Shown here piece by piece: positions 42,597-62,617 of a stretch of 64,000 nucleotides of DNA (position 1 is its first letter; each line of letters starts with the position of its first letter). The notes beneath the pieces are model-generated. The model worked only from the letters and a program-made list of their open reading frames with translations. It was not told the DNA's origin and made no database searches. The stretch is from a candidate division WOR-3 bacterium (lineage in GTDB: Bacteria; Hydrothermota; UBA3072), in contig JBDRZZ010000006.1 of assembly GCA_039804165.1 (NCBI GenBank), positions 26,217-90,216 on the forward strand, given 5' to 3'. Made by a program: the position numbers and the translations under genes.

Positions 42597-42761
42597 ATGA
42601 AAAAGACGTTGTTAGAGGTAGAGACGTTGGTGGATGAGGTGAAGTGGCCTGGCATGTATGAGGTTCAATTTGATGGTAGGGGATTATCTTCGGGGATATA
42701 TTTTTATAGGCTGATAGGTGGAGATTATATATCTGTAAGGAAGATGAATTTGGTGAAATGA
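42597..42761 (+). CDS. Passenger-less T9SS sorting domain (54 aa), remnant of a deleted gene
   Basis: An intact short frame with promoter, ribosome site (AGGGAGG) and start. After six codons (M-K-K-T-L-L) it enters the second half of a T9SS CTD: E-V-E-T-L-V-D-E-V-K, G-M-Y-E-V-Q-F-D-G, S-S-G-I-Y-F-Y-R-L, ending V-R-K-M-N-L-V-K and a stop. There is no signal peptide and no passenger, and the first CTD half with N-P-F is missing. The simplest reading is an in-frame internal deletion of a secreted-protein gene, leaving its 5' and 3' ends. It may be translated but is not expected to be exported. Confidence 0.7.
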   Translation: MKKTLLEVETLVDEVKWPGMYEVQFDGRGLSSGIYFYRLIGGDYISVRKMNLVK

Positions 42762-42867
42762 AAGTTATTTATCTTCCTGATGAAGGCTAAAATGCAGATA
42801 TTCTAATTCTGATAATTAGATTGTGAAACGGTTTATTCATAAAGTTTATAAATTATGGAGGTATGAT

Positions 42868-45800
42868 ATGAGGTATTTTAAATATTTTTTGTTTGTGTTT
42901 ATTACTATGGGTTTATATTTGAATGGACAGGGTATAGTGGATATATCTTCAGATTTGATAGTCTACTGGAAGTTTGATGAGGGGACAGACACGATAGCGA
43001 GGGATGTATCTGGTTATCATATGCATGGAGTTTTGAGAAATGCAGGATGGACAGGGCAAGGGAAATTTGGTAAAGCGTTGTCGATAGAAAATGGTATAGG
43101 TTATATGGGGACAAAGGAACAGAATTTAGAGATACCTAAAGAGCTGAGTGTAAGTTTTTGGATATACAGAAAAGGACCTAACGGAAGTGGAGATGAATGG
43201 CTTGTATCGAGGAATAAATATGGTAGGCCATTTTTTATTAATGTAACCAAGGGAAAGAAGATAAAGGCATTTATAAGGGGTATAAATAATGGAGTTTATG
43301 TGACAGCGAATACGAGTATACAGGATAGTGTGTGGAATCATATTGTAGTGACATATAAGAGTGGAGAAATCAAAATATATATAAATGGTAATCTTGACAA
43401 GGTGGACACGACTTTGAAAGAGGATTTGTACTATGACGGTAAGAAGTATAGTATAACGGTAGGGTCGACAGACACATCGAACTTTGCCATGTATGGTTAT
43501 TATGATGAGGTTCGGATTTATACTAGGGCTTTAAGTGCGAGTGACGTTAGGGCTTTATACGATGGGACTGGATTAGATGCGACACCACCATTGCCTGTAG
43601 GTTATGTATATGATGGGTTGAATGCGGATATGGATAGCACTATATCACAGACATCCCTTAGTGCGAGTTGGGGTAATGCGAGTGATCCTGATTCGAAGAT
43701 AACGAAGTATTATTATGCTATAGGGACAAGTCCAGGTGGGAGTAATGTAGTAGATTGGACAAGCAATTCTGTTAATACGAGTGTATTTTATAGGGGGCTG
43801 AATTTAACGGTTGGAATGACATATTATTTTTCGGTTAAGGCTGAGAATAGTTCAGGTTTGCAGTCGACGGTTGTATCTTCGGATGGGATTAAAGTTGTGC
43901 AAGGTAATTTTCCGAATTTGATTGAGCAAGTGAAGGATACGTTAGCTCACTGGAAAATTGATTTAAGTTATACTCAGTATCTTCCGCCGTTATCAGAGAT
44001 ATTAAATAGGCCACATTATGATGTTAGACAAGGTGGATTATTTACCTGGCATACTATATGGCAGGATCCACCATCCAGTCATCGGACTATTGAGGATATA
44101 GATTCAGTGGGAATAAAAACAGTCAGGGTTGGTAGTTACTATAATACGATGCCGAGGCATGATGAGATAAAAAATATGGCTCTCTCGATGCGTAATTTAA
44201 AGATGAAAGTACTCTATACTTTATTAGCAAAGCAAAGATATCAGACTGGGGAGTTTAGTTCGGATGAACAATGGATTGATAGTGTGTTGGCTTTTGTGGA
44301 TAGGATGATAGGTACATTTGGACCGAATGGTTCGTTCTTCAAAGAAAATCCGGATGTACCATATGAACCGGTGATATATTGGGAGGTATGGAATGAACCA
44401 GCGCTTTACTATATGTTGGGTAGAGATTATTGGAATGCATTAAATGAAGAGGGAAAGGCGGATTTGTATGCTCGGATGTTGATGGCGGTTTATCGTCATA
44501 TTCGTTCTAAGCCTGAGTGGAACGATGTGAAAGTAGTTGCGATGTCTTTGGTTGGTACTGGCTTTTTCTCGCTTGTAAATGATGCGATAATTAAGTATGG
44601 TGGAAATCCCAGAGATTACTATGATATTGTTTCTTTTCACCCTTATGTAGGTGGGCCACCGGATGTTGAGAATGTTATGATTGATTCAGTTACCGGTCAA
44701 GTTGCTTACAGGAAGTCAGTGATTAATATGACAAAAACTCTTAGAGATTTAATGGCAAAATATGGGGTTTCGGATAAGCCTGTATGGTTTACAGAGATAG
44801 GTTGGTCAAGGTATAATGGGTTAAATCCGCCAACGGGTAGGCCATATCCTGTTTTAGAACGACAGCAGGCAGCATATGTTGTCAGGTTATACGCACTTGC
44901 ATTGCGTTTAGGAATTGACCATGTTCATATTATGTTTGTATCGGATGGAGATGGTTCTAATTCAGGATTCTTTTATACAATAACAGAGCATGGTAAATTA
45001 GTATATCGAGGTTGGTATGAGGTAGCACATGCGGTAAGAAATTTTTACAAGGTACTGCCAGCGCCGAAGATAATTGGAGCGCTGAGTGATGGAGAGAAGG
45101 GGTTATATGCGTATTGGATGAAGGCAAACGAGAATGATCCTAACTCTAAGACGGTTTTAATGGCATGGAATGCAGAGTTGCCGATGGCGATAAATTTTCC
45201 TGCGAGTAATCCTAATGGGGATTATCTATTAGTGGACATGTTTGGGAATACTGCAATTATAAAGCCGCAGAATGGGCAGTTGGAGATACCTATAGGTCCT
45301 TACCCTGTTTATTTAATGGAAGGCACGGAGATACCTACGTATACATTTATTAATCCACCTGAGGAGTTGAAGGTGACGTATGTTGACAGGGAGAAGGGGA
45401 GAGTTGGATTAAGTTGGTTAGCGAGTTCTTCATCTGGAGTAAGTGGGTATCATATAATACGGAATGGAGAGGTGGTAGGTAGTACAAGTGGGACGAGTTA
45501 TGAAGATAGTGGAATATTGTCGGATAGAGATTATACGTATGCAGTTCGTGCATATACGGCAAGTGGTGTAACGAGCATAATTTCAAATGAGGTTCAGGTA
45601 TTAAGGTTGAGAGATTCGGTAGATCAGGATGACCAACAACCAATGAGATTTGAGTTATATCAGAATTATCCGAATCCGTTTAATCCTGTGACGAGGATAC
45701 AGTATGAGATACCGAGTCAGGGTAGGGTATTGTTGAAGGTATATGATATACTAGGTCGTGAGGTAGCTAAGTTAGTAGATGAGGTAAAGCAGGCGGGTAA

Positions 45801-45906
45801 GTATGAGGTAGAGTTTGATGGTAGTAAGTTGTCGAGTGGGGTATATTTTTACAAGTTGATGGTAGGTGATAATGCATTTGTGAGAAAGATGGTGTTAATA
45901 AAGTAG
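42868..45906 (+). CDS. Secreted LamG-Fn3-GH (clan A-like)-Fn3 protein with T9SS CTD
   Basis: A 1012-residue exported enzyme; start at the ATG with GGAGG six bases upstream (an earlier ATG adds 15 residues). Domains: signal peptide (F-L-F-V-F-I-T-M-G-L), LamG/concanavalin-like domain ~25-235, Fn3 ~240-345, glycosidase barrel ~350-760, Fn3 ~840-920, CTD ~925-1012 (Q-N-Y-P-N-P-F-N-P). In the barrel, W-E-V-W-N-E-P (E510) and V-W-F-T-E-I-G-W (E643) look like the acid/base and nucleophile glutamates of clan A enzymes such as GH39 or GH5; the exact family is not resolved. Coding strand is very C-poor. First gene of a three-gene operon with ~30-base spacings. Predicted role: polysaccharide hydrolysis outside the cell. 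Confidence 0.82.
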   Translation: MRYFKYFLFVFITMGLYLNGQGIVDISSDLIVYWKFDEGTDTIARDVSGYHMHGVLRNAGWTGQGKFGKALSIENGIGYMGTKEQNLEIPKELSVSFWIYRKGPNGSGDEWLVSRNKYGRPFFINVTKGKKIKAFIRGINNGVYVTANTSIQDSVWNHIVVTYKSGEIKIYINGNLDKVDTTLKEDLYYDGKKYSITVGSTDTSNFAMYGYYDEVRIYTRALSASDVRALYDGTGLDATPPLPVGYVYDGLNADMDSTISQTSLSASWGNASDPDSKITKYYYAIGTSPGGSNVVDWTSNSVNTSVFYRGLNLTVGMTYYFSVKAENSSGLQSTVVSSDGIKVVQGNFPNLIEQVKDTLAHWKIDLSYTQYLPPLSEILNRPHYDVRQGGLFTWHTIWQDPPSSHRTIEDIDSVGIKTVRVGSYYNTMPRHDEIKNMALSMRNLKMKVLYTLLAKQRYQTGEFSSDEQWIDSVLAFVDRMIGTFGPNGSFFKENPDVPYEPVIYWEVWNEPALYYMLGRDYWNALNEEGKADLYARMLMAVYRHIRSKPEWNDVKVVAMSLVGTGFFSLVNDAIIKYGGNPRDYYDIVSFHPYVGGPPDVENVMIDSVTGQVAYRKSVINMTKTLRDLMAKYGVSDKPVWFTEIGWSRYNGLNPPTGRPYPVLERQQAAYVVRLYALALRLGIDHVHIMFVSDGDGSNSGFFYTITEHGKLVYRGWYEVAHAVRNFYKVLPAPKIIGALSDGEKGLYAYWMKANENDPNSKTVLMAWNAELPMAINFPASNPNGDYLLVDMFGNTAIIKPQNGQLEIPIGPYPVYLMEGTEIPTYTFINPPEELKVTYVDREKGRVGLSWLASSSSGVSGYHIIRNGEVVGSTSGTSYEDSGILSDRDYTYAVRAYTASGVTSIISNEVQVLRLRDSVDQDDQQPMRFELYQNYPNPFNPVTRIQYEIPSQGRVLLKVYDILGREVAKLVDEVKQAGKYEVEFDGSKLSSGVYFYKLMVGDNAFVRKMVLIK

Positions 45907-45935
45907 TAGGTAATTTAAGATAATGGAGGGTTGTT

Positions 45936-48518
45936 ATGAAAAAGATATTATTAATTGTTTGGACAACGATACTTTTGTCTTTTGCAGTTTTAAGCCAGAC
46001 GCATCTTACTGTATTTCCAGGCACCACTGTAGAAGTAGGAGAGGAAGTGTATTTTGATGCGATATATTATGCGAGGACAATTTCGGATACGCTTGAATTT
46101 GAGTGGGATTTTGGAGATGGTTATAGGATGTATATAGACACTTCGGATGGGAATCCGTTTGAGTCTGGGGTAGCAGTGGTTCATTATTTTATGAAGCCTG
46201 GAGTGTATACTGTTAAGATGGAAGGGTCTTACTATAAGTTAGTTGGAGTAAGTAAGCCGGTAAAGCTCAATACGGTAGCGGTAGATTCAGTTGTTATAAC
46301 TGTTACAGGGGAGGCACCTATTGCAGGATTTGAGGTATTACGAGCGCCATTTCATGGAAGGGTAGCGCAGTATTTATATGCAAAGGTTCCGGCTGGGTAT
46401 AGTCCGAGTCAAGTTAGTGCCAGGATTGAGAAGGTAGGTGGAGGATATAGTGAGGAGTTGGTTGGTACGACGGTAGATACGTTGCAGAGGTTTTTGTTGC
46501 GGAATGCTCAATTGCCTATGGGGGATTATGTTATTACATTTGAGTTGAAGAGTGGTCAGAGTGTGGTTAGTCGGATAAGGGAGAAATTTACGAAGCCATA
46601 TAATGGTGCGCCAGTAATTGGGATAGATGAGAATAATGCCTTTGTTTTGAATGGGACGACGTACTTTTTCCCTATAGGACCGTTTATGAGTAGTAATACC
46701 TCACTATTGAGTAGGGTATCGACTGCTCTACATACTGAAGGGTATTACCCTTCTCATAATCCATCGACATGGGTAGATTACATTTCTCAAGGTAGAGCTT
46801 ATAATTTGATGACAATAGGTCCAACCAGATGGGAAGGTTTTATATCGGAGCCAGCATTTTACAAACGAAACTCAAAGGTAGATAGTATTGTAATATATGT
46901 ACAAACAGCGAAGAATGAGCAAGGGTTATTTGCGTGGTGTTGGTGTGATGAGCCGGAGCTTGGAGGTCGTTGGGCTCAGGTGCCTACACAAGTATTGGCA
47001 GCATGGGCATATAGGACTCGGTTAGAGGATCCACATCATTTAGCAACAAATCAGCTGTATGGATATAGTTACCAGAGGTATAGAAAACCGAAGCAGAGTA
47101 ATACGTTATCTGCAATGTATATGTATCGGCACAATGCGCCGTGGTATGGAGGGAAGAGGCATTTTTATGGGGATTTTTACACACATGATGCATACCCGTT
47201 AGAGGCGCAGGAGCATGCATCGTTTAAAGATTCAACTGCAGGTATATTTGAGTTATGGTTTGAGAATCTAGATGTATTCAGGTGGGTAAATTGCGATCTT
47301 ATACCATTAGGTGCATGTGTAGAAACGCAGAATGTGACATCTTGTAGTAGGATGGATCAAGAGGATTACACTACCTCATGGGATGCAGGTCCGACGCCGG
47401 ATGAGCTGAGGATGGAGTTATGGGGTGCAGTTGTTCATGGTATGAAAGCAATAGTATACTTTGATTTATTTTCTCCTACGCCGGCGGAGAATTTTAGTGT
47501 TATGGGAGAATTTAAGGAGACAATTACAGCGTTGACGCCGGTAATATTTTCAGTGCCATCGACGAGGGTTATGACGCATAATTGTAACACGAGGGGGAAT
47601 AGAGTAGATATAATGGTACGTGAGCATGGGAATGATGTATATGTATTTGCGGTAAGGGTGAGTGAGCCGGAGGGTGAATGGGATGAGGTATATGAGCCTG
47701 AGAAGATACGTTTTGAGTTGAACACAGGGATAAATATTTCGAAAGCGTATGATGAGTTATCGAGGTATAGGTGGAGTTATGTGAAGTTAGATGCTACTGA
47801 GGGGCAGAAGGAATTTAGTTGTGTAGTTCCGGAGGGTAGTATAGTACCTGGTAGTGTAATAATATCTGCTGTAATAAATAGTGCAGCATCGCAGGGGTAT
47901 CCTGATTCATTAGTAGATCAACATACAGGGAAGAAGTATCCGACGGCATTAGATATAGTTGGTAATTTGAAGTATGGATATGATGATGGGAATGGGAATA
48001 TTATACCACACGCAAATTATGGTGGTAAGAAGTTAACAGGGGCGGTTAATTATTCGACTGGGCAGATACAGTTTAGTTTTGAGACTGGAATACCGGAGGG
48101 GAAGGGATTTGTGCAGGTAGCGTATGCGCCTGGCAATAGGCAAGCTCGAGAGGTTTCGATTAATAATGGAGTTATCAGTGAAGATCTTGAGCGGAATGCG
48201 GTGAGGATATATAGGATACCGCTTGATTCAACTGGAGGTGAGGGAAATGGTCCTGGCAAGTTTAAATTATATCAGAATTCTCCTAATCCGTTTGATTCTA
48301 CTACGGTGATACGGTATGAAATTCCAAAGGAGGTAAGAGTGATATTAAAGATGTATGACCTCTTAGGACGGGAGGTGACTACTTTGGTTGATGAGATCAA
48401 AGGACCTGGAAGGTATGATTTAAAGTTAAATGGAGAAAAAATTCCTTCTGGAATATATTTTTACAGGATGATAGCGGGTGAGTTTGAGGCAGTAAAAAAG
48501 ATGATATTGATAAAATAG
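45936..48518 (+). CDS. Secreted PKD-domain glycosidase-like barrel protein with T9SS CTD
   Basis: An 860-residue exported protein: signal peptide (I-L-L-I-V-W-T-T-I-L-L-S-F-A-V-L-S), PKD domain ~25-105 with W-D-F-G-D-G, a beta-rich segment to ~220, then a TIM-barrel-like domain ~225-690. The barrel opens P-V-I-G-I-D-E-N-N and contains F-A-W-C-W-C-D-E-P (E339 a candidate acid/base); CTD ~775-860. The barrel is paralogous to that of the gene at 53839. The D-E-P motif and layout recall GH42/GH5-like barrels, but I cannot name a family. Four cysteines cluster between C333 and the loop N-C-D-L-I-P-L-G-A-C. Same C-poor coding style and operon as the previous gene. Confidence 0.75.
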   Translation: MKKILLIVWTTILLSFAVLSQTHLTVFPGTTVEVGEEVYFDAIYYARTISDTLEFEWDFGDGYRMYIDTSDGNPFESGVAVVHYFMKPGVYTVKMEGSYYKLVGVSKPVKLNTVAVDSVVITVTGEAPIAGFEVLRAPFHGRVAQYLYAKVPAGYSPSQVSARIEKVGGGYSEELVGTTVDTLQRFLLRNAQLPMGDYVITFELKSGQSVVSRIREKFTKPYNGAPVIGIDENNAFVLNGTTYFFPIGPFMSSNTSLLSRVSTALHTEGYYPSHNPSTWVDYISQGRAYNLMTIGPTRWEGFISEPAFYKRNSKVDSIVIYVQTAKNEQGLFAWCWCDEPELGGRWAQVPTQVLAAWAYRTRLEDPHHLATNQLYGYSYQRYRKPKQSNTLSAMYMYRHNAPWYGGKRHFYGDFYTHDAYPLEAQEHASFKDSTAGIFELWFENLDVFRWVNCDLIPLGACVETQNVTSCSRMDQEDYTTSWDAGPTPDELRMELWGAVVHGMKAIVYFDLFSPTPAENFSVMGEFKETITALTPVIFSVPSTRVMTHNCNTRGNRVDIMVREHGNDVYVFAVRVSEPEGEWDEVYEPEKIRFELNTGINISKAYDELSRYRWSYVKLDATEGQKEFSCVVPEGSIVPGSVIISAVINSAASQGYPDSLVDQHTGKKYPTALDIVGNLKYGYDDGNGNIIPHANYGGKKLTGAVNYSTGQIQFSFETGIPEGKGFVQVAYAPGNRQAREVSINNGVISEDLERNAVRIYRIPLDSTGGEGNGPGKFKLYQNSPNPFDSTTVIRYEIPKEVRVILKMYDLLGREVTTLVDEIKGPGRYDLKLNGEKIPSGIYFYRMIAGEFEAVKKMILIK

Positions 48519-48548
48519 AATAATGGACTTCTAAAAGGAGGTTTAAGA

Positions 48549-50483
48549 ATGAAGAAACAAATAGGGATAAAATTGCTTTGTCTTTTTATACTTTATAGTG
48601 TAAGAATGTTTGCGGTCTCTGCGGATTCGATTAAGCAGGGAGAGGTGGTGTGGAAGTTTTCTGAGCCACGGCCGGTGGGGCAATTTGCTAATGGAGACTG
48701 GTGGGTATTGGCGCCTGTGACTATAACTGAGATATTGCCGAAATATGAGAAGATTACGGACTCGGTGAGTGTGTATTCGAAGGTAGTATTGTTGACATTT
48801 TATATAAATGGATGGGAGGTAAATCCGGTTGCGAACCAATACAAACATGGATTTGATGGGGCATTGTATTATAATGTTAGTGATCCTAGTAAGAGTTATT
48901 TTGATTCGACGTTAGTACCTAAGTTACCGTATACGGTTACGGTGGGTGCAGTGGATAGTTCGGGTGGTGCGGTATCGATAGTCAAGGCGGTATCGAATTT
49001 GGATAAAGGTGGTAAGAATTATTTGCCATATAGGCGGATTAAGTCTGCTAAGGTATTGACAGTTGTATCGAGTATACCACCAGAAAATGGATCAAAGTTA
49101 TTTAGGCCTCCGTATGTTAGGGGAGAGAAGCCGTTTTATTCGGTAGATAGTATACGGTGGGACAGGTTACCGTCTTACGATTCTCCAGTAAGTAGTCCGC
49201 CGACTTTAGAATCAATTGAATCATTATATCGTAATACAGGTTTAGCACATGCAAAGGCAGTGCGGAATATGCTTCCAGTAGATGCATATGTAGGTGATTA
49301 CCAGCCTAGTAATTGTCCAAGTATTAACGAGGCGCTCTTAAGGTTGATGTTAAATGATAAGACGAATGAGGAGAAGAAGCCGGCGTTAATAGCGGTATTA
49401 CAGAGAGGTATTGATATGATACATTGGCAGATATTAGGTAATGTTCATCCTGAATCGGGTCACCAGCCGGGATTGTTAGCGATACCGACATTTACAGCGG
49501 CTTTATTGGAAATTAACAAGTATAAGGTATTTGTGCAGACACTAGCGGAGGTATTAGGTAATGAACGTTATTCTAGGAAAAATTTTCATGAATATTGTAT
49601 GTTACACGAGAGTAGTTGGAATCCAGATGTAGTTTTATGGGGAGGGGTTGATACTGAGAATAAATACTGGGATTATGTTATAAAAGGTAGCGGTAATCGT
49701 TCGATTGCAGATCCGTATGGGTATATAGATGGAGGTAAATCACCTGAGCCGTCGTATCAGGCGATATGTATTAATGGATATAAAGGGGAGGTGTTATGTG
49801 CGCATTTGATGCCGGCAATGCGGGAGGTATGGTTTGATTCAGTGTATATGAGGATGACGAAGTATGTAGATAGGATGGTGAATTTAGGTAAATGGACACA
49901 GCCAGATCCATGCGCACCTGCAGAAGGGGTATGGAGGGGGACGGGCCCGAAGAATGGTAAGCCATGTACATCAGCGATGCCAAGTCCTGATGGAGGAGAT
50001 ACATGTATATTGAGTTATGATAATTACAAGAAGACGTTTGGGCCTGATACGAATAATCCTGGTAAGTGTATATGTGATAAGGATTCGTCGGATGGGATAG
50101 GTAGATTTCCGTATGTGCATGGTAGTCAGGTAGGATGGCAGTATAAGAGTAAGTTTGTGGACACGATGTGGAGTGTATATAGAGCATCTGGTGTAGAAGA
50201 GGAAGAAAAAGGAAATTATTCAGATTTTCTATTGTTGGAGAATTATCCTAATCCTTTTAGTGGAAAAACCAGAATAGTTTATGGGATACCTAGAAAATCA
50301 AGGGTGATGGTGAAGGTTTATGATGTGGTTGGGCGGGAAGTGATTAAGCTTGTAGATGAGGAGAAGGAAGCTGGTAGGTATGAGATAGAATTTGAAGCTG
50401 AGAGGATACCCTCGGGAGTTTATTTTTGTAAACTTACAATGGGTGAATGTTCTTTTGGGAAAAAGATAGTAGTGATAAAATAA
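48549..50483 (+). CDS. Secreted protein of unknown catalytic type with T9SS CTD
   Basis: A 644-residue exported protein (signal I-K-L-L-C-L-F-I-L-Y-S-V). A beta-rich N-terminal ~170 residues is followed by a mostly helical middle (L-A-H-A-K-A-V-R-N-M-L-P-V, E-A-L-L-R-L-M-L, A-L-I-A-V-L-Q-R-G-I-D-M-I-H-W). It then has H-P-E-S-G-H-Q-P-G and the Y-M-R-M-T-K-Y-V-D-R-M-V helix, and a Cys-containing loop before the CTD (N-Y-P-N-P-F-S-G-K; S-G-V-Y-F-C-K). The helical middle with His/Trp-rich turns could be an alpha/alpha-toroid like polysaccharide lyases, but this is a guess. AGGAGG precedes the ATG. Last gene of the C-poor block; a decayed CTD follows directly. Confidence 0.65.
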   Translation: MKKQIGIKLLCLFILYSVRMFAVSADSIKQGEVVWKFSEPRPVGQFANGDWWVLAPVTITEILPKYEKITDSVSVYSKVVLLTFYINGWEVNPVANQYKHGFDGALYYNVSDPSKSYFDSTLVPKLPYTVTVGAVDSSGGAVSIVKAVSNLDKGGKNYLPYRRIKSAKVLTVVSSIPPENGSKLFRPPYVRGEKPFYSVDSIRWDRLPSYDSPVSSPPTLESIESLYRNTGLAHAKAVRNMLPVDAYVGDYQPSNCPSINEALLRLMLNDKTNEEKKPALIAVLQRGIDMIHWQILGNVHPESGHQPGLLAIPTFTAALLEINKYKVFVQTLAEVLGNERYSRKNFHEYCMLHESSWNPDVVLWGGVDTENKYWDYVIKGSGNRSIADPYGYIDGGKSPEPSYQAICINGYKGEVLCAHLMPAMREVWFDSVYMRMTKYVDRMVNLGKWTQPDPCAPAEGVWRGTGPKNGKPCTSAMPSPDGGDTCILSYDNYKKTFGPDTNNPGKCICDKDSSDGIGRFPYVHGSQVGWQYKSKFVDTMWSVYRASGVEEEEKGNYSDFLLLENYPNPFSGKTRIVYGIPRKSRVMVKVYDVVGREVIKLVDEEKEAGRYEIEFEAERIPSGVYFCKLTMGECSFGKKIVVIK

Positions 50484-50496: not shown

Positions 50497-50713
50497 ATAT
50501 TAGGCTATGGTATTGCAATATTAGTGTATGGTATAAAAGGACACAGGTTAGTATAAGGTTGAATGGAACGAAACGAATTTAATAGGGCGGTCAGTGGTAA
50601 GCGGAGTGTATTCTTATCAGCTAACAACAAGCAGCAAGTATGTAATGGCCAAAAAGATGTTATTTATTGATATAGAGAAAAAAGAAAGATTAAAATTAAT
50701 AAAAAATAAATAG
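50497..50713 (+). pseudogene. Decayed T9SS C-terminal domain without passenger
   Basis: Fourteen bases after the previous stop the DNA encodes I-L-G-Y-G-I-A-I-L-V-Y-G-I-K, matching I-L-G-R-E-I-A-I-L-V-D-G-I-K of the CTD encoded at 58.8 kb. After a frame change it gives K-D-T-G-stop-Y-K-V-E-W-N, V-V-S-G-V-Y-S-Y-Q-L-T-T-S-S and A-K-K-M-L-F-I. One internal TAG replaces a CAG-type codon. It is clearly a CTD tail that has lost its gene. Confidence 0.85.
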
Positions 50714-50725: not shown

Positions 50726-52057
50726 ATGAGAAAAAATTTTTTGATGTTAATAATAATAGCAATACTTATACAAACGGTGGAAGTTTATTCTGAACCTCTT
50801 ATAGTTGACCATAATGCTGTGGAACTATATGATGATATACCACAACAATGGATTGATTCGGTGAAGAAAATGTGGGTTACAGTTCCTGGAGAGTCACATT
50901 CAAAAGGATACCGTATTGGGCTACGTTTACTGGACTCCATTGATAACAGATTTAGGGTCAGTATTAAAGAATCTGGAACTCCAGAAGGACCAACTAATCA
51001 ATATCTTAGATTTAGTTCTGCTACCTGGGGCGATGTTGAGCATCCAACAGGCTGGATATATGGTTATGGTGAGGAAGACTGGTATACAAGTGATACAGCA
51101 ATAAATCGAACAAAAGCTAGTATAACCTATTGTAACAAAAATGGACTTGTGCTAAATGCAATGGGTTTTGGATGGTGTTGGGACATGACATGGCAGAATG
51201 GAGTTGGTGGAGGAGAAGATCCCGTATATAGATGCAGGTGGGCTGGTTCCTCAGTTGGCGGTCCAGATGGAAACAAACGCTGGGGTTTAGATGCAGAAGA
51301 TTCGGTTCTAACCGGTAATCGTGTTTGTATGGATACTTATTTGCGAGCAACTCAGGAATATATCAATCACTGCAAAGCTAATGGTTACCCCACTAAGGTG
51401 TTTTTTACAACCGGACCGGTTGACGGTACAAGCGGAGAGCTGGCATACCAGCGATATTTGAAACATGAGCATATTCGTAATTATGTTAAAAACTCCACTG
51501 ATGGAATTCTATTTGACTATGCAGATATACTTTCATGGAGTGATTCTGGAGAGGAATATACCATAAGCTGGACAGATCTTGGTGGAACTTATCACTCATT
51601 CCAGCATATCCATCCTGATAATATGTTAGATTTAGATGGCAGTTACACAGAAGATGGCGACCATATTGGTCAACGTGGTGCGTTAAGACTTGCAAAGGCT
51701 ATGTGGTATATGTTAGCTCGAATTGCAGGCTGGGATGGAATCTTAGGGGTTGAGGAGGATGGAAAGTTTGAAGCAAAAGATTTTCTCCTGAGGCAGAATT
51801 ATCCGAATCCATTTCATATAACGACAACAATCAGCTATCGGCTCCCAACTAGAGGTTATGTTAGACTTACCATATACGACTTCCTTGGAAGGGAGATTAA
51901 AGCACTTGTTGATGGGATGAGAGAATCTAGTGAGCAAAAAGTAGAGTGGGATGGTAAAAACACACAAGGTGAACAAGTTGCAAGCGGAATATATTTTTAC
52001 CAATTAAAAACAAGCAGTGGTTTTATAAGCACGAAGAAGATGTTGTTGATAAGATAA
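50726..52057 (+). CDS. Secreted SGNH-like putative esterase with T9SS CTD (paralog A)
   Basis: A 443-residue exported protein (signal F-L-M-L-I-I-I-A-I-L-I-Q-T). The first strand ends W-V-T-V-P-G-E-S-H-S-K-G, in which the serine of G-E-S-H-S could be the SGNH nucleophile. Later V-F-F-T-T-G-P-V-D-G-T resembles block III/V strands, and D-G-D-H-I-G-Q-R-G precedes a long helix ending M-L-A-R-I-A-G-W-D-G. The ending M-A/L-R-I-A-G-W-D-G and the G-[EH]-S motif are shared with the gene at 55965. CTD ~355-443. Probably a carbohydrate esterase by context. First of five tightly packed genes; ribosome site weak (AGAAGGG). Confidence 0.68.
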   Translation: MRKNFLMLIIIAILIQTVEVYSEPLIVDHNAVELYDDIPQQWIDSVKKMWVTVPGESHSKGYRIGLRLLDSIDNRFRVSIKESGTPEGPTNQYLRFSSATWGDVEHPTGWIYGYGEEDWYTSDTAINRTKASITYCNKNGLVLNAMGFGWCWDMTWQNGVGGGEDPVYRCRWAGSSVGGPDGNKRWGLDAEDSVLTGNRVCMDTYLRATQEYINHCKANGYPTKVFFTTGPVDGTSGELAYQRYLKHEHIRNYVKNSTDGILFDYADILSWSDSGEEYTISWTDLGGTYHSFQHIHPDNMLDLDGSYTEDGDHIGQRGALRLAKAMWYMLARIAGWDGILGVEEDGKFEAKDFLLRQNYPNPFHITTTISYRLPTRGYVRLTIYDFLGREIKALVDGMRESSEQKVEWDGKNTQGEQVASGIYFYQLKTSSGFISTKKMLLIR

Positions 52058-53842: not shown

Positions 53843-55953
53843 AACAATCTGTTATTATACTATTCTTATTTTTATGTGTATTACCACAATTAGTTGTTGT
53901 TAAATCTGCGACAATAGATGTTTATATGGCAGATCCAGAAGTTAGGATTGCTCAAAAGCTCTATGTGCAGATATCTGATGTATCTCCCTCAGACCGACTG
54001 TTGGTTATACTTGACGGTGATACAGTGTGTGATCGAAATGGGCCTCTTTTGCCCGAGGAAATTGTACTAGTGAGTTACGCCAATCAAGTTGCTGGAGACC
54101 ATACACTTGTTGTCAAAATTGTAGACATCTACGGCAACGATGCCTCAAACATTTTTACAAGAACATGGCGCACTTTGCATAATGGAATTCCAGTTGTTGG
54201 CATAGACGAGAACAATTCTATACGTGTAAACGGGGAGTTATATTTTCCCGTTTATGCACCAGTGGAGCGCACATCAGCCCAATGGATTAGAGATAGCCTG
54301 ATGAATACAACATTCACACTAGACTATCGTCATCCTGACAGGTGGGATTATACTATTGACGATTATATAGATTGGTTGAATATAACAGTTGGTTATGGAA
54401 CGCGTAATATAGGTCCAGCAACACGGTTCCAAGGCATAGGCAGAAGGATATGGATAAATCCTGAAACAAATGATACCGTAGTTATAGTAAATGGACATGG
54501 TCATGGTAACGATTTAGATATAATACGTCAATATGTAATTGCTGTACGAGACCACCCTGGACTTTTAATGTGGCAGTGGTCAGATGAACCTGACTGTGGA
54601 GGCACTGGTAATCGAGCAGAGCCAGAAGAAGTAAGAGCATGGACTGATACATGTCACAAATATGATACAAATCATCCACATGCTGTGAATCTTGGTGCAT
54701 ACCATTACGGACGGAATGATAGCTATTCAGTAAATCTATGTAGAGAATACAGTTACGTTTATGGTGCAAGCACTGGACATCATTCAGGTGAAAGAAAACC
54801 GATTGCGGATATTATTGGCTTCGACTTTTATCCAATAGAATATGGATCTATGAGGGATTATAGCGGTTTAGATGTCGGTTTTGTAAGCATGGCAGATGCA
54901 TTGGATCGACTCCGTTTTGAGTATAATCATGACCTCTTTCCAATTTTTTCCTGGAATGAGAACTGTGATATTCATCCTGAATATACCGATGCTCCTGCTT
55001 GCCCTGGGAACAGAGACTATTGCCCTGGATTCTGTTCTTTTGATTCGACGTGTAACCCATCTGGAACACGATGTGACAAATGCTGTCCTGAAGGTTCAGT
55101 TAGGTGTACACCTGGTGTTAATTGTCCAGCTTCTACTCGTGGTTATTGTCGCAATAGTCCACCCTATTATCAATGGACACCCCCACCTACGCCAGAGCAG
55201 ATGTGGGCTGAATACTGGATTAAGATAATACACGGTGTAAAAGGATTTCAGATACACGCTGCATTCAGTGATGATTGTGTAGGGTACAACAGCAGAACAC
55301 AAGGTCTACCACCTCGCAATGCAGAGACTATGAGAAAATTCCTAACTTGGATGAACGACCTTAAGTATGCTGTGCTTGGACCCGATTACGACGGAACAGT
55401 AATTCATCAAGAGGCAAGCGGAGTTAGAGTTGATGTTATGGTAAAAAAGTATGAGGATATTATTTACATCATCGCTGCAAATTTGTCAATGGAACAGAGC
55501 GAAACTGTCCAATTTACAATGGATGTAAGTTCACAGGGACCTGTTGAAGTCTATGGGGAAGGTAGAACCATTCCTGTCAGCAATAATACGTTTTCCGATA
55601 ATTTTGCTCCGTTAGGTGTTCATATCTATAAATATAGGGCTTCAAATGATGGCTCCGAAAGTAATCAACCTAAGCAGTTCTATCTCTACCAGAATTTCCC
55701 TAATCCTTTTAACTCTTCCACAAAAATCCAGTTCTTTATTGGGAACAGGGAGAAAATAGAATTAATTATCTATGACATACTTGGTAAGAAAGTACGCACA
55801 CTCGTTAATGATGTTCTAAGCACTGGTGCTCATACAATTTCATGGGATGGAAAAGATAACTTTGGTAATGTTGTGAGTAGTGGAATTTATTTCTATCAAC
55901 TAAGAGATGGCAAAAATATAGTAAAAACTAAAAAAATGACTTTAATAAAATAA
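53839..55953 (+). CDS. Secreted glycosidase-like barrel protein with Cys-rich insert and T9SS CTD
   Basis: A 704-residue exported protein, ATG overlapping the previous stop with AAGGAGGAG upstream. A beta-rich domain (to ~112) is followed by a barrel-like domain ~115-590 opening P-V-V-G-I-D-E-N-N, with M-W-Q-W-S-D-E-P (E250) as the candidate acid/base. It is paralogous to the barrel encoded at 45936. Residues 376-437 are an inserted loop with 11 cysteines (for example R-C-D-K-C-C-P-E-G), absent from the paralog and probably disulfide-bonded. CTD at ~615-704. The family is not identified; GH42/GH5-like barrels are the nearest idea. Confidence 0.74.
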   Translation: MKQSVIILFLFLCVLPQLVVVKSATIDVYMADPEVRIAQKLYVQISDVSPSDRLLVILDGDTVCDRNGPLLPEEIVLVSYANQVAGDHTLVVKIVDIYGNDASNIFTRTWRTLHNGIPVVGIDENNSIRVNGELYFPVYAPVERTSAQWIRDSLMNTTFTLDYRHPDRWDYTIDDYIDWLNITVGYGTRNIGPATRFQGIGRRIWINPETNDTVVIVNGHGHGNDLDIIRQYVIAVRDHPGLLMWQWSDEPDCGGTGNRAEPEEVRAWTDTCHKYDTNHPHAVNLGAYHYGRNDSYSVNLCREYSYVYGASTGHHSGERKPIADIIGFDFYPIEYGSMRDYSGLDVGFVSMADALDRLRFEYNHDLFPIFSWNENCDIHPEYTDAPACPGNRDYCPGFCSFDSTCNPSGTRCDKCCPEGSVRCTPGVNCPASTRGYCRNSPPYYQWTPPPTPEQMWAEYWIKIIHGVKGFQIHAAFSDDCVGYNSRTQGLPPRNAETMRKFLTWMNDLKYAVLGPDYDGTVIHQEASGVRVDVMVKKYEDIIYIIAANLSMEQSETVQFTMDVSSQGPVEVYGEGRTIPVSNNTFSDNFAPLGVHIYKYRASNDGSESNQPKQFYLYQNFPNPFNSSTKIQFFIGNREKIELIIYDILGKKVRTLVNDVLSTGAHTISWDGKDNFGNVVSSGIYFYQLRDGKNIVKTKKMTLIK

Positions 55954-55964
55954 AGGAGGTCTCT

Positions 55965-57269
55965 ATGAGTATATGTAAAATAGAAAAACTTTTGGTGTTA
56001 TCAATAGCACTTCAATTTTTGTATGTTACATCATTGAACTCTCAGATTATAGCAGGACACGAAGCAGCAGCGAGTTTTCGTTCTATCCCACTTTCTGCAA
56101 TATTGAAAGCAAAAGACAGTCTTCACATTGCCTACGGCCACTCATCACATGGTCAACAAATAATCGAAGGTGTTAGAAATTTAGATGCTTTTATGACAGC
56201 AAATGGAAGTCCAGCTGGAACATATGCTGTAGATTTTACAGGAAATGCAGGACAGGGTGTTTTGGACTTTCGTGATAATGGTGATTACTATTTTGTACAA
56301 CATCCTCCAAGACCTTTTCCAGTTGCCAAAGACTTGGGAGCTGATTGGAATAATAATCTTAACTACACTGCATGGGTTTCTGATACGAGGAATTATTTAA
56401 ATAGTCATCCTGAAGTTAATGTAATTATTTGGAGTTGGTGCAGTCAAGCAGGATATAATAATTACGACCATCATATAGAAGCTTATCTTGATAGTATGTC
56501 CGCTCTTGAAGCAGATTATCCAAATGTAAAATTTGTATATATGACAGGTCATGTAGATGGAACAGGGCTTAATGGAAGACTTCATACAAATAATGAGATT
56601 ATCAGAAACTATTGCATTAATAATGGTAAAATACTATATGATTTTGAAGATATAGAGAGCTGGGATCCTGATGGTAATTATTATGGTGATAAGTTTGTAA
56701 CAGCCGCTTGTAATTGGGATGCAAATGGTAATGGTTTTACGGAAGAGGCAAGAGAAGATACTGGAGACTGGGTACCACCTGGACCGTTGAATGGAGATAG
56801 AAATTGGGCCCTTGAGTGGCAAGAATCGCATACCTTAAACGTAGATTGGTATGAATGTAAAATCAATCATTATCATACCCAGCATTTGAATGATAATTTG
56901 AAGGCATATGCATTCTGGTGGCTTATGGCTAGGATTGCAGGCTGGGATGGTTCTCCAGGCGTTAATGAGGATAAAGAACACCTTCCACTTAAATTTAGTT
57001 TATCTCAAAATTTTCCTAACCCGTTTAACCCAAAAACAACGATAAGATTTTCGATTTCTGAATATACTATGGTTAGTTTGAAGATTTATGACATTTTAGG
57101 GAGAGAAATAGCTACACTTGTAAACGAACCAAAGAAACCAGGTGAATATACGGTTGAATGGAATGGAACGGATCTGTCAGGCCAGCAAGTGGCAAATGGG
57201 TTGTACTTTTATCAATTAAAAACAAGCAATGGTTTTATTTTTACCCGTAAAATGGTACTATTAAAATAG
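55965..57269 (+). CDS. Secreted SGNH-like putative esterase with T9SS CTD (paralog B)
   Basis: A 434-residue exported protein with AAAGGAGG before its ATG. The motif H-I-A-Y-G-H-S-S-H-G-Q-Q near residue 50 puts a serine after the first strand, as in SGNH block I. The strands V-I-I-W-S-W-C-S-Q-A-G and F-V-Y-M-T-G-H-V-D-G-T fit the core sheet, and the Y-H-T-Q-H-L-N-D-N-L region before a helix ending M-A-R-I-A-G-W-D-G could supply the catalytic histidine. Paralogous to the gene at 50726. CTD ~350-434 with Q-N-F-P-N-P-F-N-P. Probable sugar-ester hydrolase, unproven; the G-H-S-S-H opening suggests an uncharacterised SGNH subgroup. Confidence 0.7.
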   Translation: MSICKIEKLLVLSIALQFLYVTSLNSQIIAGHEAAASFRSIPLSAILKAKDSLHIAYGHSSHGQQIIEGVRNLDAFMTANGSPAGTYAVDFTGNAGQGVLDFRDNGDYYFVQHPPRPFPVAKDLGADWNNNLNYTAWVSDTRNYLNSHPEVNVIIWSWCSQAGYNNYDHHIEAYLDSMSALEADYPNVKFVYMTGHVDGTGLNGRLHTNNEIIRNYCINNGKILYDFEDIESWDPDGNYYGDKFVTAACNWDANGNGFTEEAREDTGDWVPPGPLNGDRNWALEWQESHTLNVDWYECKINHYHTQHLNDNLKAYAFWWLMARIAGWDGSPGVNEDKEHLPLKFSLSQNFPNPFNPKTTIRFSISEYTMVSLKIYDILGREIATLVNEPKKPGEYTVEWNGTDLSGQQVANGLYFYQLKTSNGFIFTRKMVLLK

Positions 57270-57282
57270 ATGTTATACATTA

Positions 57283-58980
57283 ATGGTATTGAACTTTGTT
57301 AGGGAAAAAATCTTATCGGTTCTATTTTTTGAGATATTGATAACATTACAGGCTTTACCAGCAAATCATTATATACGGGCTGGTGCAACAGGTGCGAATA
57401 ATGGTAATAACTGGGTAGATGCATGGACAAGACTGCCTGATGTTTTAGTAAGAGGGGATACTTATTATGTTGCAAGTGGAACCTATCCGTTTTATAGAAT
57501 CGAAGAAGTAAATGGTTCAGGTTATATTGTTATCAAGAAGGCAACAGAATTTGATCACGGAACTGATAGCGGATGGGTTTCAGCTTATGGGCAGGGTGTT
57601 GCATCTTTCCAGGGATTGGAGATATTAGCTTCGTGCGTTATTTTAGATGGACAAACTGGTGGAGGACCAGGAAACTGGAATTCAGGATTCGGCTTTGAAG
57701 TTGTTAGAACGCCGCCCGACAATTGTGGCGACAATGGTGATTTGCTCAGAATAGGAGCAAGCATAAACGACCCAAAGACCAATATCTATATAAGTCATGT
57801 AAAATTTTATTCTACAAGTACAAACTATCCTATGGGAGGTATATCTTTATACGGTGGTGTTGCTAATGCAACTATCTCGTATTGCTCTATTACCAATATT
57901 TTTGGTTGCCCATTTTTCTTTAATTCGTGTAGTAATGTTATAATAGAGTATAACTATATAGCTAATACCCGTTCGACTGGTTCAGTTGATCCTTACTGTC
58001 CCGGTTGGCATACAGAAGGAATATCTTCTATCGGTCAGAATACTAATATAACGATTCGATATAACTTATGGGATCGCATAGCTGGCACCGCTATAATTGC
58101 AGGAATAAATAATGGCACTTGTGAGAATTGGAAAATATATGGGAATATTTTTGCAAGGAGTGTTACAACTATTCGCTATTATTATGATGGGACATCTAAT
58201 AGGCAAGTTATGAATAACCTAGAATTCTATAATAATGATATTGTAGGTATTCCTGAAACAATTGGTGGTTATGGAGTTTCGCAGGGTGGAATTGTTATCG
58301 ATAGCGGAAACAATAATAAGGTTTATAATAACATCTGGTATAATAACATAGCTAATTCATTTTCTATTGATGCCGAACATGGATTTAACTATTTCGCCGA
58401 AAATCGTAGAGTAGAAGGTTGTTATCCTCAGCCTTGCGATATGGATGAAGATGCTGCTGTTGACGATGTGAACACTCAACTTGGCCCTGATGCAAGTCCG
58501 TTTATCAGCGGGGATGGAGCAGGTGATCCTTTACAAGCGAGTTTTTTACTTAAAGTGCCTACTGAGCCAGGTTTGCCACTTAGTGCTGAATTTAATAAGG
58601 ATATGTTTGGTAACATTCGTGGCGAAGATGGAGTTTGGGACCGAGGTGCTTGCGAATATGTAAATAGCTCTGATGTATGTGATGAGATTTCTGAGCTAGC
58701 AGATTTTATATTATCTCAGAATTGTCCTAATCCATTTAACCCAAAAACAATTATAAATTATAGTATTGGAACAAGGGGTTATGTGAGCCTAAAGATTTAT
58801 GATATTTTAGGTCGTGAAATTGCAATACTTGTTGATGGAATAAAAGAGGCAGGATATCACAAAGTAGAATGGAATGGTAAAAGCTCATCTGGACAACAAG
58901 TTGTAAGTGGTGTGTATTTATATCAACTAAAAACAAGCAGTGGTTTTGTGAGTACGAAGAAGATGTTGGTGATAAGGTAA
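57283..58980 (+). CDS. Secreted right-handed parallel beta-helix protein with T9SS CTD
   Basis: A 565-residue exported protein. It opens N-H-Y-I-R-A-G-A-T-G-A-N-N-G-N-N-W near residue 28, the usual start of secreted beta-helix enzymes of the pectate-lyase/DUF1565 sort. Repeated coils follow (I-S-Y-C-S-I-T-N-I, I-I-E-Y-N-Y-I-A-N, W-K-I-Y-G-N-I-F-A-R, N-K-V-Y-N-N-I-W-Y-N-N). An N-terminal acidic cluster could bind calcium as in PL9-type lyases, but catalytic residues are not identifiable. CTD ~480-565. No clear ribosome site, so it may be coupled to the upstream gene 13 bases away. Likely acts on a polysaccharide. Confidence 0.8.
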   Translation: MVLNFVREKILSVLFFEILITLQALPANHYIRAGATGANNGNNWVDAWTRLPDVLVRGDTYYVASGTYPFYRIEEVNGSGYIVIKKATEFDHGTDSGWVSAYGQGVASFQGLEILASCVILDGQTGGGPGNWNSGFGFEVVRTPPDNCGDNGDLLRIGASINDPKTNIYISHVKFYSTSTNYPMGGISLYGGVANATISYCSITNIFGCPFFFNSCSNVIIEYNYIANTRSTGSVDPYCPGWHTEGISSIGQNTNITIRYNLWDRIAGTAIIAGINNGTCENWKIYGNIFARSVTTIRYYYDGTSNRQVMNNLEFYNNDIVGIPETIGGYGVSQGGIVIDSGNNNKVYNNIWYNNIANSFSIDAEHGFNYFAENRRVEGCYPQPCDMDEDAAVDDVNTQLGPDASPFISGDGAGDPLQASFLLKVPTEPGLPLSAEFNKDMFGNIRGEDGVWDRGACEYVNSSDVCDEISELADFILSQNCPNPFNPKTIINYSIGTRGYVSLKIYDILGREIAILVDGIKEAGYHKVEWNGKSSSGQQVVSGVYLYQLKTSSGFVSTKKMLVIR

Positions 58981-59399: not shown

Positions 59400-59566
59400 G
59401 GGTTATTTGGGTAAAAATTGATATTGCCCTAAGCAAGGTAATGATATCGGATAAATATGCGGCTGAATGGAAGAAATTTTGGTGGAGGGATGTATTTTTA
59501 AAATTTTCTGCAGGCAGAACGAGAAGTAAAAAATCATTCAGAATAAAAATGTTGTTAATGAAATAA
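59400..59566 (+). pseudogene. Decayed T9SS C-terminal domain in the 58.98-59.58 kb gap
   Basis: Frames V-K-I-D-I-A-L-S-K-V, K-Y-A-A-E-W, G-G-G-M-Y-F (frameshifted) and S-F-R-I-K-M-L-L-M-K with a stop at 59564-59566 follow the order of a CTD second half. It ends 15 bases before the next gene's ATG. The 58.98-59.40 kb part of the gap shows no recognisable gene. Confidence 0.65.
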
Positions 59567-59581
59567 AAAAAGGAGGTAGGT

Positions 59582-61627
59582 ATGAAGATGTTAAAAGCAG
59601 TGTTAGTAGTAGTTGTTATGTTAAACGCGATCTCCTCTTCTGCCCAGCAGGAAGAGAGATTCACAAAGACAATCTCCTCAATAGACGGAAAGGAATGTGA
59701 GGTTTACATAAACAACAAAAATGGCACGATTCACCGAGCGTATGGACTAAAAGGTTTTGATACCCGTATTTCAAGCCGAAATATCGAAAGTTTAAGCAAT
59801 CAGTTTATTACCAGCCATAAAGAAATCGTTAAAGTGGATCCGGGTAGTCTTGAACTTGTAAGATGTAAAAAAGCAAAAGATAAGGATAGATGGTTTATAA
59901 ATTACCGACAGTTATACAAAGGGATCCCAGTTTATGGTGCATCAGTGGGATATACAGTACATGAAAATGGAAACATTGTTGCATTTGGTGCCGATGTTTA
60001 TCCCGATATCAATATAGATGTTCATCCTTCTTTATCAGAAGAGGAAGTGCTGGTGATAGCCAAGAGAGAACTTATATCATTAGCTGAAAAAGAAGGCAAA
60101 GATATTCCGGAAGATGAAATAAAAGTCAGTTTGAGACCCGAGCTTTCGGTATATCCCATAGAAAAAGAAAATGGTTATGAGTATAAGTTGGTTTATCAGG
60201 TGAGGTTAACTTTTATAGGTAATGAAGGTATTTACGATCAAAGTTATTTAATAGATGCTAAATCAGGGAGTGTTGTGAACTCATATTCAAATGTATTGAA
60301 TGCTATATACGGTAGAATCAAACTTGAATACTGGACTGATTACTTAAAGGATTCAACGTCTTATTCATATTATAAAGGCTCACCTAACTGTCCTGTATCT
60401 CTTTATAAGTTTAATAATAACGGATTGGAATACCTTGCGAGCACAATAACTGAAGAAAGCGGAAGATTTTATTTCCCGTACAGCAGTAGAGCCGGCTATT
60501 ATGTTTACTCGATGTATCATGCAGGGCAATTGTATAACGATATTGTTAAAATAGAAGATCAAAAAAATAATTATGACTACGCAATGTACTTAGATAACAA
60601 TTATAGATGGTATTGGAGGGTGAGGGAAGCGACAAATCTTTATGTACATATTAACATATTCCACGATGATTACATCGCAAGATATTCCGACGCTATGGAT
60701 AACCTACAGGTTCAGGCTATAATAACTTCAAGTGAGCTAATTAATGGTTTATGTACAGGTGGTTTTTTATATTTCGGTACAGAATCTGGTTACAATTGGA
60801 GCAGATATCGAGAAGTTGTATATCATGAATATTCCCATTCTTTTACCATTACCAGCAGAAATAGAGAACCAATACCTGGTGGTATTCCTGGTGCGGCTAT
60901 GGAAGAAGTATATGGATTACTTGAAGGATTAGCAGATTACTTTCCCTGTTCATATCTTAATGATCCTCTAATGGAAGGGCCGAATTTCTCTCGTAATCTT
61001 GATAACGACCTTATGTATGAAGGAATTTTTGGTAATCACTATTATGGCCAGATTTTTGGAGGCGCCCTCTGGGATTTACGGAGTTACTTAGGCCAGGAAA
61101 ATGCAGACAGGCTCATTATTGAAGCAATTGAGATGGAGCCTTACGCTTGGTTTTATAATGAATTTGCAAAAAATATTGCAATAGCTAACGATGATGATGG
61201 GAACCTGAATAATAGTGTTCCCGATTGGTTCTGGATTAACAGAGCATTTTACACAAACCACGGTATTCCTTTCAATGTTCCTGCTCCTTCGGTAGAGAGA
61301 ACAACAGAAGTAATTAATTTTACACCGGAATCTCCAGCACCTCTGGAATATTCTTTATCTCAGAACTATCCCAATCCTTTTAATTCAACCACAACTATTT
61401 CTTTCTCCGTACCGGAAGAAGCGCATGTTAGAATGGTTGTGTATAATACTCTGGGGCAAATAGTAAGTGTCCTAGTCGATGGAGAATATACACCGGGCAG
61501 CTATTTGGTTAACTTCAATGCAACCGATGTAGCCAATCAAGTATATATAGTAAAAGCGGTTATGACTTCCATCGAAAATCCTAAAGAGCAACATAATTTT
61601 ACGAAGAAGATGATATTGCTGAGATAG
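59582..61627 (+). CDS. Secreted thermolysin/fungalysin-like (M4/M36) metallopeptidase with T9SS CTD
   Basis: A 681-residue preproenzyme. Signal V-L-V-V-V-V-M-L-N-A-I-S-S-S-A-Q; FTP/PepSY-type propeptide ~25-245 (Y-K-G-I-P-V-Y-G-A-S-V, S-Y-L-I-D-A-K-S-G-S-V-V-N). Catalytic domain ~250-590 with V-V-Y-H-E-Y-S-H-S-F, an H-E-x-x-H zinc helix, and the third ligand in E-G-L-A-D-Y-F. The last ~85 residues are a CTD (Q-N-Y-P-N-P-F-N-S) of a different flavour: no S-G-[VI]-Y-F-Y but N-Q-V-Y-I-V, ending F-T-K-K-M-I-L-L-R. AGGAGG precedes the ATG. Likely degrades protein outside the cell or processes neighbouring enzymes. Confidence 0.86.
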   Translation: MKMLKAVLVVVVMLNAISSSAQQEERFTKTISSIDGKECEVYINNKNGTIHRAYGLKGFDTRISSRNIESLSNQFITSHKEIVKVDPGSLELVRCKKAKDKDRWFINYRQLYKGIPVYGASVGYTVHENGNIVAFGADVYPDINIDVHPSLSEEEVLVIAKRELISLAEKEGKDIPEDEIKVSLRPELSVYPIEKENGYEYKLVYQVRLTFIGNEGIYDQSYLIDAKSGSVVNSYSNVLNAIYGRIKLEYWTDYLKDSTSYSYYKGSPNCPVSLYKFNNNGLEYLASTITEESGRFYFPYSSRAGYYVYSMYHAGQLYNDIVKIEDQKNNYDYAMYLDNNYRWYWRVREATNLYVHINIFHDDYIARYSDAMDNLQVQAIITSSELINGLCTGGFLYFGTESGYNWSRYREVVYHEYSHSFTITSRNREPIPGGIPGAAMEEVYGLLEGLADYFPCSYLNDPLMEGPNFSRNLDNDLMYEGIFGNHYYGQIFGGALWDLRSYLGQENADRLIIEAIEMEPYAWFYNEFAKNIAIANDDDGNLNNSVPDWFWINRAFYTNHGIPFNVPAPSVERTTEVINFTPESPAPLEYSLSQNYPNPFNSTTTISFSVPEEAHVRMVVYNTLGQIVSVLVDGEYTPGSYLVNFNATDVANQVYIVKAVMTSIENPKEQHNFTKKMILLR

Positions 61628-61970: not shown

Positions 61971-62096
61971 TAGAAATTAAGGTGGAGGTTCATTTACATT
62001 AATCCAACAAAAGCGAATACCGCTTGTCATCCATAATTCCAACACTTCTTTTTTCTTATTCGGAGAGGTCCTTTTGTATGAGCGTGACACTTTATT

Positions 62097-62232
62097 CTTC
62101 ATATGGTAATGTACTTGTAAAAAGATAGATAGAGGGAAGCTGTATGAAGTTCTATTTGATGGAATAGAATTTAATAGAGACAGAAGACAGGATAAGATTG
62201 AGTCTATAGAGAATACTAATATAACCGGATAA
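62097..62232 (+). pseudogene. Decayed T9SS C-terminal domain fragment
   Basis: Reading V-L-V-K-R-stop-I-E-G-K-L-Y-E-V-L-F-D-G-I-E-F-N, this matches the L-V-[DK]-E-x-K-x-x-G-K-Y-E-V-E-F-D-G stretch of neighbouring CTDs, then loses similarity. No start or passenger is present. Confidence 0.6.
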
Positions 62233-62463
62233 AAGGTTTAAATAACAAAATATTGTATATAAGTAACGTTGTAAGATGAAATATCATCCCGAGGATGGTT
62301 CATCTCAGTTTTATTCAAGATGGTATCGCCCAAGGATAATGCTCTCAATTAAACGAATTTCCCCGGAGGGGCTGTGGCAAGGTATTAAGGACAATTTAAC
62401 GAGTAAGGCAGGGAGCAGGATAAATTTGAAATTCAGTATATCAGTATAGATGATGTTATAATA

Positions 62464-62617
62464 GGTGAGCTGGTTATATACAATGTTCTTGGAACAACAA
62501 GTAGTAGGATAATGTTAAAATAAGAGAAGAAGGTTGTTAAATGGAATGAAGATTTTTCTTCTGTAGTTTCTGTAAACTATTTGTAGATGAATATGTTTTT
62601 ATAAAAAGATGATTTTT
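62464..62617 (+). pseudogene. Decayed T9SS C-terminal domain fragment
   Basis: A single frame gives G-E-L-V-I-Y-N-V-L-G-T, then after a TAA E-K-K-V-V-K-W-N-E-D and S-V-V-S-V-N-Y-L, in the order of the I-Y-D-x-L-G-R, V-x-W-N-G and V-x-S-G-V-Y-F-Y segments of intact CTDs. Three nonsense codons (TAA, TAG, TAA) interrupt it. About 160 bases of plain AT-rich DNA separate it from the next promoter. Confidence 0.65.

Follow-up and report, generated by a model that had tools for sequence, protein, structure and literature searches.

We analysed a 64,000-nucleotide stretch of DNA (hereafter the window; contig C6, positions 26217-90216) from a candidate division WOR-3 genome (G000; 1.96 Mb in 49 contigs, 95% complete) that carries an island of cargo genes of the type IX secretion system (T9SS), each encoding a passenger followed by a C-terminal sorting domain (CTD). 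CTDs were called from TIGR04183 and PF18962 profile matches at the C-terminus, the curated TIGR04183 cut-off being 23 bits. G000 was compared with the genome of a congeneric sister species (G001) and with a control genus (G020 and G039), and homologs of the island passengers were searched for in 147 WOR-3 genomes; all genomes compared are metagenome-assembled genomes (MAGs). Genes are named by their start in the window or, elsewhere, by contig and position.

Nine consecutive plus-strand genes terminate in type A CTDs (Table 1). An earlier, sequence-only reading of the window had counted eight intact genes with homologous CTDs; the consecutive run is confirmed by the profile, and one gene has to be added to the count. 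Eight of the nine proteins reached the TIGR04183 cut-off in the protein scan, and the other (59582) scored 21.3 bits, 1.7 below it, in that scan and 25.2 bits, above it, in the genome search. The genes fall into two operon-like blocks and a solitary gene (59582). Block 1 (42823, 45936 and 48549) has gaps of 29-30 bp, a GC content at third codon positions (GC3) of 0.35-0.37 and 84-residue type I CTDs; block 2 (50726, 52079, 53839, 55965 and 57283) has gaps of -4 to 21 bp, a GC3 of 0.25-0.30 and 90-residue type II CTDs, with that of 53839 divergent. The passengers, described in the same reading as unrelated, are not all so: 50726 and 55965 (SGNH-like) are homologous to each other, as are 45936 and 53839 (barrel; 22% identity, E 2e-23). 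The passenger of 48549 had no homolog among the 147 WOR-3 genomes searched. Most island passengers are without a close homolog, and the ortholog test of swapping given below covers few island genes. Repeats common to the island genes are CTD-coding, FG-GAP-coding or short chance matches.

Table 1. Cargo genes and CTD remnants of the island (window coordinates)
Feature	Position	Strand	Description
CTD remnant, type I	42597-42761	+	Intact 54-residue open reading frame (ORF) with GGGAGG resembling a ribosome-binding site; CTD homology from ~42615; nhmmer match 42615-42759, E 3e-15
Block 1 gene	42823-45906	+	Laminin-G/concanavalin-like, fn3 and glycosidase-like passenger; CTD 45652-45906, 84-residue type I
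Block 1 gene	45936-48518	+	PKD and barrel-like passenger; CTD 48264-48518, type I
Block 1 gene	48549-50483	+	Orphan passenger; CTD 50229-50483, type I
CTD remnant, type II, frameshifted	50497-50713	+	nhmmer match 50500-50664, E 2e-18
Block 2 gene	50726-52057	+	SGNH-like passenger; CTD 51785-52057, 90-residue type II
Block 2 gene	52079-53842	+	Big_5 and FG-GAP passenger; CTD 53558-53842, type II
Block 2 gene	53839-55953	+	Barrel passenger, distant paralog of 45936; CTD 55681-55953, divergent 90-residue form
Block 2 gene	55965-57269	+	SGNH-like passenger, relatives with or without CTD; CTD 56997-57269, type II
Block 2 gene	57283-58980	+	Beta-helix passenger; CTD 58708-58980, type II
Possible strongly decayed CTD remnant, marginal	59400-59566	+	nhmmer E 0.016, local p 0.01, score 25.5
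Solitary gene	59582-61627	+	FTP/PepSY-propeptide M36-like metallopeptidase; divergent CTD 61352-61627
Claimed CTD remnant, at chance level	62097-62232	+	p 0.11
Decayed CTD remnant	62464-62617	+	Frameshift-tolerant protein-profile alignment, score 36.5

The AsnS protein of the window is 79% identical to its counterpart in a WOR-3 MAG (L031) and 69% identical to that in a Stahlbacteria MAG (L032), which marks the host as a WOR-3 bacterium. Gene order is conserved with both relatives left of position 42240 and not conserved right of AsnS, which places the island at a synteny break. Contig C6 stops at the right edge of the window, where a gene for a glycoside hydrolase family 3-like beta-glucosidase (62868-64000, plus strand) is cut off by the contig end, so that the right border of the island is not seen. 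Across the whole genome, TIGR04183 matched 55 times in G000 and 76 times in G001. SprA (205 bits; cut-off 200) and the sortase PorU (463 bits; cut-off 420) are encoded in G000, the latter inside the window (5986-9672, minus strand), and the best PorV-like barrel protein (107.5 bits, E 5e-31) lies below its 250-bit cut-off and is a homolog only. Because SprA and PorU are encoded, together with PorV-like barrels under the cut-off, a functional T9SS is likely in G000. PorU itself ends in a CTD, which tracks its ortholog (76% identity).

CTD and passenger histories

A CTD replacement with both a direction and a breakpoint was found in the sister species. The tandem paralogs C29:167036 and C29:169326 of G001 are 85% identical at the nucleotide level up to nt 1514, in the codons for NYPNPF, and unlike beyond it. 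Their G000 ortholog C1:159465 shares the passenger with both, its match to 167036 (73% nucleotide identity) ending at that position, and its CTD matches that of 169326 only. From nt 1498 to the gene end, 167036 is instead 75% identical to the CTD of C29:149267, a gene 18 kb distant with an unrelated passenger. The maximum chi-square test places the breakpoint in 15 nt within the NYPNPF codons (informative sites 46:3 before, 24:79 after), that is, at motif A, the start of the CTD. In the CTD tree 167036 groups with the G001 array (support 100/99) and 159465 with 169326 (95/93).

Inside the island, gene 45936 is discordant. Its sole clear ortholog among the 147 WOR-3 genomes is C29:149267, which lies within an array of CTD genes. 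The passengers of the two are 55% identical, yet each CTD groups with those of its local neighbours, in two separate clades (99/95 and 100/99); forcing the CTDs together was rejected by the approximately unbiased (AU) test (p = 0.025). Either CTD may be the ancestral one. Within G000, C3:138129 and C23:9883 share ~92-100% nucleotide identity over their last ~300 nt compared with 61-66% just upstream, and differ after the stop, which marks a recent conversion or copying event comprising the CTD and ~90 nt before it. Separately, C23:10656 and C30:316 (L143 and L150, one of them at a contig end) use identical synonymous codons at 19 successive positions of the CTD, a possible conversion tract that was not significant after all-pairs correction.

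The SGNH-like passenger of 55965 has gained and lost its CTD repeatedly. Homologs occur in 25 of the 147 genomes, and 12 full-length ones stop at the passenger end without a CTD. By pattern matching rather than curated prediction, all 12 have a lipobox-like cysteine, which CTD-bearing homologs mostly lack. The passenger tree requires at least three changes of CTD state, one paralog of a sister pair in G001 differing from the other (support 100/99). The homologs (L211-L239) have either a lipoprotein signal without a CTD or a Sec signal with one; L220, L225 and L232 appear to have both.

Between G000 and G001 we obtained 27 reciprocal-best passenger pairs, 20 of them with a passenger identity of at least 43%. 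The idea that CTDs have histories of their own holds for three of these 20, which are clearly discordant (C1:159465/C29:167036, 45936/C29:149267 and C8:44456/C29:46815), and not for the 15 in which the CTD tracks the passenger; two were unclear. These counts allow for the better C-terminal homolog of C32:8469: its pairing with C17:216139, the reciprocal-best passenger, was rejected as a swap, as C26:41681 is the better C-terminal homolog and the CTD tracks. CTD replacement is occasional and not universal, and the data do not support an active system. The earlier proposal that CTD-coding DNA is a recombination substrate is upheld in part by exchange between genes with unrelated passengers (167036, 45936 and C3:138129/C23:9883), but not as a general rule, since most CTDs track.

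Among island CTDs, the nucleotide matches reported earlier were recovered. The exact 19-mer shared by the CTDs of 52079 and 57283 occurs at positions 53678 and 58828 only. 50726 and 57283 are ~90% identical over their final ~60 nt, extending a few bases beyond the stop; the likeness continues past the stop, and the DNA was therefore copied. TAAATTGTT, shared across the stops of these two genes, occurs at positions 52055 and 58978 only, although a 9-mer is uninformative by itself. We compared codons at identical residues with the expectation from island codon usage. 36 of 55 codons were identical between the CTDs of 52079 and 57283 (23.9 expected, z = 3.5), and the pair 50726/57283 gave z = 2.6. 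Similarity beyond protein constraint thus applies to these two pairs and not to the other 34 of the 36 island CTD pairs, which were near expectation with little or no excess. A gene on another contig, C1:197682, matches 57283 equally well (z = 3.6). Orthologs of two congeneric species retain a similar excess (e.g., CTD z = 3.1), which makes the island copying old.

CTDs of pairs with unrelated passengers were more similar within 5 kb than at a distance in both G000 (0.417 vs 0.205) and G001 (0.270 vs 0.170; permutation p = 0.003 in each). Motif A is the most conserved stretch of CTD DNA, with 77% mean pairwise nucleotide identity vs 47% in the next 120 nt.

We consider it probable (roughly 0.66) that the region is a lineage-specific T9SS cargo island in which tags descend mostly with their passengers and are occasionally overwritten by recombination, its passenger-less CTD tails being scars of gene loss. 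Another CTD gene would occasionally be the donor of a new CTD, presumably through gene conversion or homologous recombination. The donated stretch would start at or just before motif A (N-x-P-N-P-F codons) and end at or just past the stop, and because it is bounded in this way, reading frame and secretion function would survive. CTDs within a block or array would be alike regardless of passenger because donors are often neighbours, copying probably running from neighbour to neighbour. On a longer scale, passengers would gain or lose the whole CTD, alternating with a lipoprotein signal. The tails would arise separately, by deletion and decay of cargo genes at block borders.

Several results weigh against this explanation. 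The sharp breakpoint at motif A is one event only, in the sister genome and not in the window; AU tests of an 85-residue domain are weak, with p = 0.06-0.08 for this event, and its junction may be a chimeric assembly of the MAG. In the other discordant families the break lies upstream of motif A, in the linker. No island pair was significant in a GENECONV-like run test after correction for 280 pairs, and so no recent tract was found within the island. The neighbour effect in G000 is accounted for by the island alone (near 0.185, far 0.178 without it). In the control genus the CTD tracks the passenger in 17 of 18 ortholog pairs; CTDs there are mostly without motif A, judged from match starts.

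An origin without recombination is a rival explanation that we regard as unlikely: the island would have recruited separately acquired genes or operons with differing CTD subtypes, and likeness within a block would stem from a shared source or from selection favouring a single shuttle or sortase. The blocks do differ in GC3 and CTD subtype, the region right of AsnS differs among the compared relatives, and CTDs mostly track passengers. Such an origin, however, leaves unexplained the abrupt NYPNPF breakpoint in C29:167036, the 92-100% tract of C3:138129/C23:9883 and the codon identity of 52079/57283 above protein constraint.

Passenger-less CTD remnants

Five CTD fragments without passengers had been reported between the island genes. 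Three are solid (42597-42761, 50497-50713 and 62464-62617), 59400-59566 is marginal and 62097-62232 is unsupported. The DNA profile found nothing in the reversed window comparable to the matches at 50500-50664 and 42615-42759. The fragment at 62464-62617 was detected by frameshift-tolerant alignment only, where it exceeded the best of 200 shuffles (28.5) and was the sole unannotated match clearly over background in 681 kb on both strands, the next highest score being 31.3 in the other ~617 kb. The score of 59400-59566 is reached by chance elsewhere in the genome. No claimed remnant lies on the minus strand, and all of them fall in the four gaps longer than 50 bp, i.e., between operon-like blocks. 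The remnants begin in mid-CTD and not at motif A. Neither Pfam nor a set of 128 known cargo proteins revealed a decayed passenger in these four gaps. The 42597 ORF opens with MKKTLL, which could be a fused gene start; an alignment of these residues with LKMYDLLG of the CTD is another option.

Outside the island, the only clear passenger-less CTD in G000 is C4:75816, 3' of an unrelated gene; a further CTD match, C5:98810, lies at a contig edge. C14:23493 resembled a remnant and was rejected, because it belongs to a full-length CTD gene with a single frameshift immediately 5' of the CTD (near position 23735; L164, ~3200-3260), which is a fresh pseudogene or an assembly error. In the control genus, a CTD match at C18:205818-205988 of G020 (L375) has two in-frame stops and is probably a tag remnant or a decayed cargo gene.

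Cassette-like diversification, with CTD DNA actively swapping passengers and the stranded tails representing displaced old tags, had been proposed, and we now judge it improbable. Two observations agree with it. The type II remnant at 50497, which spans the CTD from the middle onwards, as far as the end, begins a few bases past the stop of 48549, a gene with a type I CTD, and this is the arrangement that a displaced tag should show; and remnants are enriched in the island, with three solid ones in 12 CTD units vs one clear case (C4:75816) in ~44 elsewhere (Fisher test by hand, p ~0.03). Only the 50497 remnant adjoins an intact CTD gene in this way: no CTD gene precedes 42597 (AsnS is divergent), which looks like a gene with an internal deletion, and hundreds of bases separate 59400 and 62464 from the CTD gene before them. 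CTD repeats that recombine would yield hybrid CTDs, not tails, and tails as by-products of swapping are not borne out by remnants that occupy gaps between blocks. Nor does the cassette idea fit CTD similarity within the island that is old and lacks significant recent tracts, or the tracking of passengers by CTDs in most orthologs. The simplest reading is that the remnants are ordinary scars of cargo genes lost at block borders, as in the gene-loss component of the explanation that we prefer. That the tails are functional short proteins, such as decoys or regulators of the secretion machinery, is very improbable: 42597-42761 does have an intact frame with a plausible ribosome-binding site, and GFP is reportedly secreted with no more than the last 22 residues of one CTD (PMC10202324), but no signal peptide is evident in this ORF, frameshifts or stops interrupt the other remnants, and a conserved homologous short ORF was not found.

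Relation to known systems

Motifs A-E have been described for type A CTDs (PMC10202324), and the island CTDs resemble these in an NPF-type motif A at the start and a KKM.(L/I)..K-type end. They differ in their host, a WOR-3 bacterium, whereas reviews assign the T9SS to the Fibrobacteres-Bacteroidetes-Chlorobi group (PMC11205867). CTDs are sufficient and swappable secretion tags, and a CTD swap in F. johnsoniae altered the destination of the cargo (PMC12618676). In the open-licence papers searched, we came across no account of a natural CTD replacement through recombination at motif A, which is weak evidence of absence.

The closest mechanistic parallel is the exchange of CdiA/Rhs C-termini at a VENN (or DPxGL) motif, with orphan modules (PMC3150448). 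Both involve abrupt loss of identity at a domain border marked by a short, conserved peptide-coding motif, which agrees with exchange at that point, and in both tail fragments adjoin genes. In CdiA/Rhs, however, the constant part is the exported scaffold and the tip is variable, whereas here it is the transport tag that changes, on a passenger that stays; no immunity gene is present here, and the tails are better explained by gene loss. The motif-bounded drop in identity is seen in one polarised case (C29:167036 of G001), and the island remnants do not begin at the boundary motif, as orphan modules of such an exchange would. Recombination and allelic exchange of gingipain and adhesin genes in P. 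gingivalis likewise diversify surface proteins that are T9SS cargo, but there adhesin and catalytic modules are rearranged and the CTD is described as conserved (PMC5266723).

Interchangeability of CTDs has so far been based on engineered fusions, and a natural replacement with a mapped breakpoint adds an evolutionary case. Together with repeated gain and loss of the tag on one enzyme family, it opens the evolution of the T9SS secretome to direct tests. Caution is called for as well, in that CTD and passenger may differ in history and a single origin of the whole protein should not be assumed. A broader possibility, which we put forward tentatively and think doubtful as it stands, is that T9SS cargo is re-tagged by recombination targeted to motif A, with local CTD arrays as a reservoir, changing delivery or anchoring; the tags of an array would then evolve in concert while the passengers diverge. 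One additional CTD gene lies in the window off the island (13884-16430, plus strand; CTD 16164-16417), and its CTD is close to neither island subtype.

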